Below are positions 8,908 to 62,357 of a stretch of DNA of 64,000 nt, one piece after another. Numbering within the stretch: position 1 is the stretch's first letter; every line of letters starts with the position of its first letter. A program made the translations under genes and the position numbers. This stretch comes from a virus, in IMG/VR virus record IMGVR_UViG_3300034072_002211, positions 186,001 through 250,000 of that record, one strand, 5' to 3'. A model generated the notes under the pieces. That model was not told where the DNA came from and did not search any database. It was given only the letters and a program-made list of their open reading frames with translations.

Positions 8908-9444
8908 TTACTTCTTACCCTGAGCTTTACGGACCGTGCCAATGCTCACATCGAATTCTCTGGCGATCTTTTCATCGCTGAGACCGCTTTCCAGCTTGCG
9001 CTTGCGAATTCGCCGGTAACGCTCTTCCTTCGCATATTGCTTAGGAGTGAGCTTCTTAGCTTTGGGTGAAGTAGAAGGCGTAGGGGCTGGAGTCGCTCGA
9101 CTGTCGATATCTGCCTGCGTGATCTCCCCTCCCGCGAACAAAGTGTCGAGAAGCTTTTGACCAGAAGTTTTGGAGGTCTTGGTGGGGATTGGCTTTGCGA
9201 TCACCGCTTGACTGGTCTTTGGGGCATGAGCGGCTTTGCTCAACATCCAGGGAGTCGTCCCTTCGGCTTTGTGCTGAACCCAGCGGGCCTTCAGGTAAGA
9301 CCCTTTGCCTCGCAAAGGGCGGTTGTGTTCCTTTACGATCTTGTAGATTCGAGAGCTGTTGAGACCAGTTGCGTCAGTAATTTCGCGGACAGGCTTATTT
9401 TCGTCCCACAGCTTAAGAACAAGAGTCTCAATTGAATTGTTCAC
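8908..9444 (-). CDS. Helix-turn-helix DNA-binding protein, 178 aa
   Basis: Two predicted HTH motifs: residues 13-40 (KPVREITDATGLNSSRIYKIV) and near the C-terminus (LSDEKIAREFDVSIGTVRKA), separated by a Pro/Thr/Lys linker. Likely binds DNA as a regulator. The GTG start is chosen because GAGGAG precedes it by 8 bases. The gene lies next to a 12-bp direct-repeat array and its leader is complementary to a small RNA, so it is a good candidate for a regulated phage repressor or replication protein. Confidence 0.75.
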   Translation of the reverse strand: MNNSIETLVLKLWDENKPVREITDATGLNSSRIYKIVKEHNRPLRGKGSYLKARWVQHKAEGTTPWMLSKAAHAPKTSQAVIAKPIPTKTSKTSGQKLLDTLFAGGEITQADIDSRATPAPTPSTSPKAKKLTPKQYAKEERYRRIRKRKLESGLSDEKIAREFDVSIGTVRKAQGKK

Positions 9445-9499
9445 AGTTGGTCTCCTCAAAAAGCGCGCTGTTTAGCGCATTGTGCATGTTTAAGGGATG

Positions 9500-9513
9500 C
9501 TTGGTCGGGCGCC
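9500..9513 (-). promoter_or_regulatory. Complement of sRNA loop in HTH-gene leader
   Basis: Minus-strand GGCGCCCGACCAAG, close to the predicted 5' end of the HTH mRNA, is the exact reverse complement of 9613-9626. It is a candidate target site for the small RNA or one arm of an attenuator. Confidence 0.55.
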
Positions 9514-9524
9514 CCTGTGACACC

Positions 9525-9554
9525 TTTCTGCGCTCAGGTTTTACCCTCGTCAAC
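9525..9554 (-). promoter_or_regulatory. Putative promoter of the HTH gene
   Basis: GGTTGACG followed after 17 bp by CAGAAA. The -10 is weak; the -35 matches the common phage pattern. Confidence 0.4.
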
Positions 9555-9556
9555 CG

Positions 9557-9641
9557 AAAAAATCACAGGAAAGGCGGGACCGCAAAAGCAATCCCGCCTT
9601 TTGTTTGGTATCGGCGCCCGACCAAGGACAATACCAACTGT
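9557..9641 (-). ncRNA. Candidate antisense-type small RNA, about 85 nt
   Basis: A promoter is visible at 9648-9676. The transcript would start with a hairpin whose stem is TTGGTAT/ATACCAA (9631-9637 with 9605-9611). Its loop carries CTTGGTCGGGCGCC (9613-9626), complementary over 14 bases to the leader of the downstream HTH gene. A 10-bp terminator stem (AAAGGCGGGA/TCCCGCCTTT) with a run of six T follows. This is the layout of a cis-adjacent antisense RNA or of a transcription attenuator. Confidence 0.6.
9570..9601 (-). terminator. Rho-independent terminator of the small RNA
   Basis: 10-bp stem AAAGGCGGGA / TCCCGCCTTT, followed on the minus strand by CCTGTGATTTTTT. Confidence 0.7.
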
Positions 9642-9647
9642 CCTTTC

Positions 9648-9676
9648 TAACTAACTCCAATTGGTAGTTTGTCAAC
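9648..9676 (-). promoter_or_regulatory. Promoter for the small RNA
   Basis: TTGACA, 16-bp spacer, TAGTTA on the minus strand, placing the start near 9641. Confidence 0.55.
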
Positions 9677-9722
9677 AAGTTTGTGTGCGTTACTTTGTGG
9701 TTCTAACTATGCCTAGAACTGT

Positions 9723-9794
9723 GGTTAGAAGTATGGTTAGAAGTATGGTTAGAAGTATGGTTAGAAGTATGGTTAGAAGTATGGTTAGAAGTGT
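9723..9794. repeat. Six tandem 12-bp repeats (iteron-like)
   Basis: GGTTAGAAGTAT is repeated head to tail five times without error and a sixth time as GGTTAGAAGTGT. The array sits in an AT-rich, gene-free region beside an HTH gene. Arrays like this often bind a replication initiator or repressor; function here is inferred. Confidence 0.85.
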
Positions 9795-10091
9795 GTTTCT
9801 ACCTACTAGTCTATGGAGTGTAATAGGTAGGACAAGTTAGTAGTCTGCAACAGTGTGCCCACTACAGGCCCATGAAAGGCTTGGATTTTTCGGTGACTAG
9901 TTGTTCTCTAACTACCAAAGGTAGGGGCAGTCTTGTAGTGTTTTCTACCTAGTACACTTGTGTATTAGTTTGATAACACACAACTTCAATCTACAATGCT
10001 TTTTTGTGAAGTAGCAGTTGGACTCTTACCAAAGAAATCTCGAAGTCAGACTGCTAAGGTAGTCTGACTTGATGTAGTGTCTGAAGTGTAG
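9795..10091. other. AT-rich gene-free stretch
   Basis: No credible open frame on either strand. It holds scattered TAGTTAG/CTAACTA and CTACCTA words related to the repeat unit, and a hairpin (GTCAGACTGC taag GTAGTCTGAC region near 10045-10070) just after the stop of the beta-barrel gene that could be its terminator. Confidence 0.5.
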
Positions 10092-10802
10092 TTAGAACCG
10101 CTTGGTAACTCCAAGAACAAGTTCAAGAGTAGGCGTGTCGCGAGTCAGACCCACGTTGGCATTGAGGTCGATTTCTACGTTTCGCGAGGCAGTCCACACG
10201 GTTGTGAAGTCTAGGCTGGCTTGTGTTTGCCCCGCGCTATGCTGCGCGAACACTTCAATGGTCCCGCCTATGGGTCCGTAGAGGGTCTGATTCACACCCA
10301 CAGCGCCACTGATCAAGGGAGTGGGCAACACGAATACCGTTGGGCTTGCGTAGAGCTGTGTAGAGGGCGACACATCATAGGTTGCGCCCAGCGCAACGCC
10401 TGCGCCCAAGCGGCCCTGAGAAGCGTTCTGAGAACCCGTAGGCAGCACAAGCATGGGCTGAACTGCTAGGCTCAGCTGATCATCCTTGATGTTGCGACGC
10501 AGGGCCAAACGCAGGTCGCCTTGCCCCACACGCGAACCCTTGCGGACCCAAGGGCTCAAGCCAACTTGGACTTCGGTGTTCTCGTTGAGACCAAGGCGAA
10601 CCACTGTGTCGCCAAGTAAGAGAGTGGAATCAGCATCGTCGAACCAATCAGTCAGGCTGACTTCAACTTGGACATGACCGGGATCAACAACACACGGTTG
10701 GATCGCACCACGATCAGGACAGAGCGGCTTGAGGTCCTGAGCCACGGCAGGACTGGAAAGCATCAAGGCAAGAAGGGCGAGCCTACTTACCAAAACGCTC
10801 AC
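10092..10802 (-). CDS. Outer-membrane beta-barrel protein (Phenol_MetA_deg-like), 236 aa
   Basis: Residues 1-22 are a typical signal peptide ending AVAQ. The mature part is built of alternating strands (TEVQVGLSPWV, DLRLALRRNI, LSLAVQPMLVLPTGS, GAGVALGATYDV) with the LPTG turn seen in the Phenol_MetA_deg / MetA transporter-like family, and ends in VTKRF with C-terminal Phe, the BAM recognition signature. A phage-encoded outer-membrane protein could alter receptors or permeability; that role is inference. Start GTG at 10802; the tiny upstream gene overlaps it. Confidence 0.75.
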   Translation of the reverse strand: MSVLVSRLALLALMLSSPAVAQDLKPLCPDRGAIQPCVVDPGHVQVEVSLTDWFDDADSTLLLGDTVVRLGLNENTEVQVGLSPWVRKGSRVGQGDLRLALRRNIKDDQLSLAVQPMLVLPTGSQNASQGRLGAGVALGATYDVSPSTQLYASPTVFVLPTPLISGAVGVNQTLYGPIGGTIEVFAQHSAGQTQASLDFTTVWTASRNVEIDLNANVGLTRDTPTLELVLGVTKRF

Positions 10803-61700: not shown

Positions 61701-61729
61701 TTTCTAAAAGAAAGCCGCGTTCAAGTCAA
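61701..61729 (-). promoter_or_regulatory. Promoter of the structured RNA
   Basis: TTGACT, 17-bp spacer, TAGAAA; its -35 overlaps the terminator of the gene at 61761. Confidence 0.7.
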
Positions 61730-61758
61730 GAAGGGTGGCTAGAAGCCACCCTTCTTGA
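61726..61758 (-). terminator. Strong hairpin terminator
   Basis: 15-bp arms TCAAGAAGGGTGGCT / AGCCACCCTTCTTGA with a three-base loop, right after the stop of 61761-62357. Confidence 0.75.
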
Positions 61759-61760
61759 TA

Positions 61761-62357
61761 TCAGCCGACCTTGACGGTGAGCTGGGCTTCGAGGTAAATC
61801 TTCTCGCTATGGCCGAGCGAGACGCCATCGGAACCACCGCCCTTGGACGTGCTCTCCAGCATCATTGCGGATGCTGCATAGCTGGCACCACGCGCGTTGC
61901 TCATGATGTCGCGAGCGATTGCCTCACCGAACTCGATGCGCGTCACAGTGCCGCTCAGCTTCTCGGCTTCGGCCTTGGCCTTCTCGATGAGTGCAACACG
62001 GAGATCGCTCTCGGCCTTGCGCTTCTCATGGAGCGGGATGCTGGCGTCGATGTTGTTGATTGCGATGGTCAGCTTGCCCTGCTCGCTCAGCTGGTCGCAC
62101 TTCAGTGCCAGCTGGTCGTTCTGCGTGGCGTCGATGCGGGTCGAAGCCTGAACACGGAACGTGAAGCCATCGGGCTGGTAGGTGAAGTTGCTGAAAGCCC
62201 AGCTGACTTCCGGGAAGAGCTTCTTGGCCAGTTCGAGGGCCGCAGCTTCGAGGGCCGGACGATCCTGGCCATTGACGACGCCCTGGATCCAGGCGCTGAT
62301 CTTCACGGTGGTATTGGTGATCGTGACCTCGTCGGTCATGTTGAATTTGATCTTCAT
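61761..62357 (-). CDS. SIMPL (DUF541)-like protein, 198 aa
   Basis: Alternating strands and a helix KRKAESDLRVALIEKAKAEAEKLSGTVTRIEFGE near 115-150 resemble the SIMPL/DUF541 fold. No signal peptide, unlike bacterial relatives. Function unknown. The ATG at 62357 is chosen because GGAGCAATCC precedes it; own terminator. Confidence 0.65.
   Translation of the reverse strand: MKIKFNMTDEVTITNTTVKISAWIQGVVNGQDRPALEAAALELAKKLFPEVSWAFSNFTYQPDGFTFRVQASTRIDATQNDQLALKCDQLSEQGKLTIAINNIDASIPLHEKRKAESDLRVALIEKAKAEAEKLSGTVTRIEFGEAIARDIMSNARGASYAASAMMLESTSKGGGSDGVSLGHSEKIYLEAQLTVKVG

Follow-up and report, generated by a model that had tools for sequence, protein, structure and literature searches.

A candidate C4-like antisense RNA with conserved loop–leader pairing upstream of an HTH gene in a T4-like jumbo phage

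Upstream of a gene for an HTH protein in a large phage genome, the loop of a hairpin is complementary to a site in the leader of that gene, and comparison of the sequence with that of a second phage indicates that this pairing is a conserved RNA feature, on the evidence of two genomes rather than a phylogeny. The element has the appearance of a genuine RNA switch; switches of this kind are known in a few other phages. We consider the chances about even that it encodes a predicted antisense RNA which shares a strand with its downstream target and represses translation in a C4-like mode.

The locus lies in IMG/VR record IMGVR_UViG_3300034072_002211 (277,444 bases; here G000), of which positions 186001-250000, a stretch of 64,000 nucleotides, were analyzed as the window; unprefixed coordinates refer to it. 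The record carries genes for a baseplate wedge protein, a phage DNA polymerase and an NAD-dependent ligase, and a helicase is encoded within the window. The DNA polymerase shares 58% identity with its counterpart in Sinorhizobium phage Phosso and 52% with the one in Agrobacterium phage Atu_ph07. Several IMG/VR contigs are 80-85% identical to the record, including G004 (435,856 bp) and G005 (416,714 bp). By its sequence G000 is a T4-like jumbo phage, and its relatives suggest that the host is probably an alphaproteobacterium. The set of relatives used for comparison, G000 to G006, totals approximately 2.04 Mb; the G000 and G005 records are both metagenomic assemblies.

All features of the cassette lie on the minus strand, upstream of the HTH gene. 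Read 5′ to 3′ they are a repeat array, a TTGACA-N16-TAGTTA promoter, a display hairpin, a terminator-type hairpin, a spacer with a TTGACG box, the target arm, a small hairpin, GAGGAG and GTG. The features and their immediate neighbors are as follows:

10092..10802, minus strand: upstream neighbor, a signal-peptide protein of the Phenol_MetA_deg (outer-membrane type) family (Pfam E 1.6e-6)
9696..9795, no strand assigned: 12-bp direct-repeat array, TAGAAGTATGGT, about 6.6 near-perfect copies in 9714-9792 (Tandem Repeats Finder)
9648..9675, minus strand: promoter, TTGACA (9675-9670), 16-nt spacer, TAGTTA (9653-9648)
9565..9641, minus strand: putative antisense RNA (about 77 nt) that would run from the expected start to a point just beyond the terminator stem, supported by alignment with G005 and by a covariance model
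9605..9637, minus strand: display hairpin, stem 9637-9631/9611-9605, 19-nt loop 9630-9612 (UGUCCUUGGUCGGGCGCCG)
9613..9626, minus strand: putative antisense segment of the loop, CUUGGUCGGGCGCC
9570..9601, minus strand: terminator-type hairpin whose U tract is broken (UUUCC), with a run of six U about 8 nt farther on
9500..9513, minus strand: predicted target site in the leader, complementary to the loop, GGCGCCCGACCAAG
9452..9457, minus strand: Shine-Dalgarno sequence GAGGAG, recognized by sequence
9443..9451, minus strand: second complementary site, ACCAACUGU, over the spacer between Shine-Dalgarno and start and the GTG start
8908..9444, minus strand: predicted target gene, a 178-aa protein with an N-terminal HTH_23 domain (Pfam E 2e-7, above cut-off)

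The two arms, 9500-9513 and 9613-9626, form a perfect 14-nt inverted repeat and lie 99 nt apart, so the perfect complementarity claimed in a preliminary description of this DNA was exact. Complementarity also goes beyond these 14 bases: ACAGUUGGU (9641-9633) pairs with ACCAACUGU (9451-9443), covering the spacer and the beginning of the GTG codon at 9444. The promoter and the hairpin displaying the 14 bases were likewise found as first described, the hairpin having a 19-nt loop and the promoter being of the phage's own type. The cassette promoter did not pass a strict sigma-70 scan and carries T-A at +22/+23 counted from the -35 box, a mark of G000's own promoters. The array ends about 20 bp upstream of its -35 box. 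The RNA start expected from the promoter, at approximately 9641, coincides with the first pairing base; a transcript starting at GGACAG or earlier would form an alternative hairpin (GGACAGU../..UGUCC) that hides part of the loop. The description of a terminator with six T held for the hairpin but not for the position of the T tract, which begins about 8 nt past it (CCTTTCCTGTGATTTTTT). Because of this displacement termination is probably leaky in G000, and a separate short RNA may therefore be scarce. The presence of a promoter and a terminator-type hairpin before the target site nevertheless points to a diffusible RNA. A TTGACG box in the spacer between terminator and target site is conserved in G005; a second promoter at this box was rejected, as its -10 misfits the phage pattern, and no other good independent promoter for the message was found.

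Elsewhere in G000, promoters of the TTGAC type before genes often contain inverted repeats with arms of 6-12 bases (21 of 73, vs about 2.6 in shuffles), located between the -35 box and the start and mostly over the -10 (e.g., TCACCAGTTCT GCT AGAACTGGTGA). Sites include window 6548, 46370, 4470, 37103 and 24367 (minus) and L132:2671 (minus), among others. These repeats could be operators for a single phage regulator, or else the promoters may fold into hairpins; the repeats probably also cause the recurring 'SPVLLNRTG' reading frames.

The evidence for pairing comes mainly from G005, where the whole cassette directly follows a homologue of the same upstream gene (10092..10802). Its order is a 12-bp array, promoter, hairpin, U6 terminator, TTGACG box, loop-complementary site, hairpin and start region. 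The promoter is conserved between the two genomes as TTGTTGACAA....C.AATT..AGTTAGTT, and the G005 RNA aligned at L163:8955-9028. Its display-hairpin loop is UGACCUUGGUUGGCCACUG, to which the leader site GUGGCCAACCAA is complementary, and its start region is partly complementary to the 5′ part of the RNA, as in G000. In a plain alignment of the two genomes, made without structure and with both arms in register, 10 of 35 pairs across three helices had changed on both sides with pairing kept, while controls in which the partners were slid by 1-3 columns gave 0-2 double changes and none of 500 shuffles reached the observed value. All 7 pairs of the display stem are kept in G005, two by double change and one by change to G-U, and the terminator stem contributes five double changes. 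The preliminary description had proposed looking for compensatory changes in the 14-base arms, and its suggestion of antisense-type pairing was strengthened by the outcome: the long-range helix between loop and leader retains 13 of 14 pairs, with three double changes and one change to G-U. At each of the four loop positions within this helix that changed, the partner kept the pair. Conservation is higher in the loop core, CCUUGGUYGG, than around it. The excess of doubly compensated pairs over the 0-2 in controls is our reason for regarding the pairing as conserved at the RNA level; such agreement in three helices, in this comparison of two sequences, would be hard to obtain without selection for pairing. 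A coding explanation of the conserved block was discarded by eye, given a 2-nt gap in the alignment and a G005 stop in the frame that is open in G000.

These changes also bear on whether the inverted repeat is a chance occurrence near an ordinary terminator. Inverted repeats of 12 nt with 40-160 nt spacing number 43 in the 2.04 Mb of these phages vs 14 in shuffles, about one per 47 kb, and an inverted repeat alone is therefore no proof. Compensatory changes in all three helices, together with an identical layout in G005, speak against coincidence, which we regard as scarcely credible and, on the sequences compared, as refuted, barring an assembly artefact at the G005 locus.

Folding energies were consistent with extensive pairing. 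For the RNA-leader duplex the energy in G000 is -48.8 kcal/mol, a value that none of 1000 shuffled leaders attained; the value for the G005 duplex was reached by 12 of 1000. For the duplex between the RNA 5′ part and the start region the figures were 2 of 1000 shuffles in G000 and 50 of 1000 in G005, where this contact is weak, comprising 11 pairs, 3 of them G-U; nor is the contact carried by a separate loop. Swaps of RNAs and leaders between genomes gave no discrimination and were uninformative because GC content dominates the energies. The fold of the whole leader, another check raised at the outset, was -101.1 kcal/mol against a shuffle mean of -66.6 (z = -8.0), and the minimum-energy structure holds all helices together, the terminator included.

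That last result favors a cis-acting leader, in which the RNA would work only within the read-through message: its 5′ domain would fold back and close the start codon, the long-range helix would enclose the terminator and the second hairpin, and translation would depend on folding, processing or a bound protein. Coexistence of all helices at z = -8.0 is what such a leader would show, cis pairing is faster than trans pairing, termination looks leaky in G000 where no clear second promoter was seen, and the conservation of base pairs fits equally well. However, with U6 directly after its hairpin G005 has a better terminator than G000, and most transcripts should stop there without reaching the leader; an element acting purely by folding in cis has no use for a terminator placed between the two arms; and compensatory change has also preserved the display hairpin, which a diffusible RNA needs. 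We judge a cis-acting leader rather unlikely, but a serious rival, given its very stable fold and the apparent weakness of termination in G000. The same fold bears on the attenuator considered in the preliminary description, in which the 14-bp long-range helix would compete with the terminator. A terminator-type hairpin does sit between the arms, but the arm at 9500-9513 is transcribed after the terminator (9601-9570), overlaps none of its bases and coexists with it in the fold; the anti-terminator arm of an attenuator would instead share bases with the terminator stem and be transcribed ahead of it. As a 3′ arm made later cannot prevent termination of the same transcript, that proposal fell away, and we consider attenuation very improbable.

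In the mechanism we favor, that of a same-strand antisense RNA, a short RNA of approximately 77 nt would be made from the cassette's own phage promoter, with the 12-bp array as the probable binding platform that sets when it is made. Most transcription would end at the terminator hairpin; the message for the gene that follows would arise from some read-through or from a start elsewhere. The 19-nt loop would pair in trans with the leader site just downstream, the 5′ end of the RNA would then zip onto the Shine-Dalgarno and start-codon region, and translation of the downstream gene (the HTH protein in G000) would be blocked. The loop helix and the start-region contact point to translational repression, as a potential for pairing rather than an observed event. 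The G005 array shares the 12-bp period but has another sequence (CACTTACAAGGG x10.4), and lies 11 bp before its -35 box. As period and place are conserved and sequence is not, the simplest view of the array is that of a platform bound by a different regulator in each phage. Between the array and the upstream gene (window 9797-10090), about 290 bp are gene-free and contain many CTAG and TAGGTAG/CTACCTA motifs; G005 has no counterpart of these motifs.

Plasmid copy control commonly involves paired antisense RNAs, and an iteron-like 12-bp array in a long gene-free stretch, with a promoter and paired RNAs, could conceivably mark an origin with a regulatory RNA. Array-bearing gene-free DNA is also present in G004, where another 12-bp direct repeat array (ACTATGGGAGTC; L222:1029-1068, G004:196029-196068) occupies a gene-free stretch of about 530 bp without the RNA cassette. 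Such a replication or copy-control region nonetheless seems quite improbable: there is no clear turn in GC skew here and no adjacent replication gene, the array sequence is not conserved, and in both genomes the target site is part of a gene leader.

C4 RNA is encoded on the same strand as its target and upstream of it. In phages P1 and P7 it is 77 nt long and has loops complementary to sequences around the ribosome-binding site of the ant mRNA (PMC12197685). The predicted G000 RNA resembles C4 (Rfam RF01695) in its length of about 77 nt and its position upstream of the target on the same strand (9641-9565 vs leader 9513-9443, minus; also in G005), as well as in recognition through a loop, and possibly in making a second contact, near the ribosome-binding site of a phage regulatory gene. 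In contrast to C4, which is processed out of its target transcript, the G000 element has its own promoter and terminator-type hairpin; the C4 target is the antirepressor (ant) operon, whereas here it would be an HTH protein (G000) or an unknown 200-aa protein (G005); a 12-bp array is part of the cassette; and G000 is a T4-like jumbo phage unrelated to P1. With the Rfam C4 model nothing in the window reached the gathering score, and the locus itself gave no match up to E = 10 in either G000 or G005. The best reading of this comparison is that the element would work like C4 without being a member of the Rfam family.

Other phage RNAs are less similar. In phage P22, the small antisense sar RNA prevents translation of a regulatory gene by pairing with a leader (PMC12197685). 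The likeness lies in a small phage antisense RNA directed against the leader of a regulatory gene. The sar RNA is encoded on the strand opposite its target, while the G000 RNA would lie on the same strand and use 14 loop bases for the match. The OOP antisense RNA of lambda, with its promoter and terminator, acts on the regulatory gene cII (PMC12197685). In being a phage antisense RNA with promoter, terminator and a regulatory-gene target it is comparable, but OOP is encoded opposite its target and acts via RNase III on a long duplex. In trans-acting terminated leader RNAs and plasmid copy-control RNAs, a terminated 5′ RNA acts on a message and pairing starts at the loop; unlike in those systems, there is no riboswitch or replication gene at the G000 locus. 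The conserved pairing with a target message expected of a phage antisense RNA was found, in two genomes.

No third copy of the cassette was found. A covariance model run over the approximately 2.04 Mb of G000 to G006 recovered the cassette in G000 and G005 only, five relatives being without it, and weaker matches were terminator-like and dismissed. Loop and promoter patterns over viral contigs returned G005 alone, an exact 14-mer scan of viral contigs gave 120 chance matches, none with the second arm, and at the DNA level no close copies turned up in the collections. The covariance model also drew attention to a strong terminator-type hairpin at window 61723-61784 (minus; AAGAAGGGUGGC .. GCCACCCUUCUU).

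The RNA might instead act mainly against other messages, of host or phage, with the leader site as a sponge or a feedback element. The conservation of the loop core above its surroundings would fit such a role. So would a match in bacterial genomes, where 26 of 27 matches to the RNA were antisense to one conserved glycosidase-like gene; window 9614-9640 (minus) matches the antisense strand of this arabinofuranosidase-like gene (motif RPTKVNTNWGG) in Sphingomonas and Janthinobacterium at 26 of 27 nt. We judged this match to be chance, as it is expected in a collection of this size (our estimate, E ~0.6), and G000 has no second site of at least 13 complementary bases, the 12-mers found sitting inside genes. 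An RNA directed mainly at other messages is thus improbable. The match would be worth a look if the host were Sphingomonas.

The genes around the cassette differ in how far they are shared. The HTH protein has a possible second HTH of resolvase or sigma type at its C-terminus (weak), and its PHROGs matches are weak. Its homologue in G004 (31%) has a plain short leader and no cassette, and no useful relatives other than this were found among viral contigs, phages and plasmids. The upstream neighbor is 52-67% identical in G005, G003 and G006 (53% in G005), and in G003 and G006 it is followed by an ordinary promoter. The proximity to an HTH regulator noted initially thus holds in G000 but does not extend to G005, where the cassette precedes a gene for a 200-aa protein of unknown function, unrelated to the HTH gene and without a homologue elsewhere. 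Because an unrelated gene follows the cassette there, the module, as far as the two sequences tell, is not tied to HTH genes.

The pairing structure persists through changes in sequence, and the gene under its presumed control is not the same in the two phages; this suggests a control module that can be exchanged. Tentatively, and with appreciable doubt, we propose a new portable family of phage riboregulators, of an origin independent of C4, consisting of an array, a promoter, a loop-displaying terminated RNA and a target site, with loop and target co-evolving, and placed before different genes in different jumbo phages after an outer-membrane-type gene. Regulation by base pairing is barely explored in large lytic T4-like phages, and this element is directly testable because it adjoins its target. 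If the proposal is true, the C4-type layout would have arisen, or spread, well outside temperate phages.
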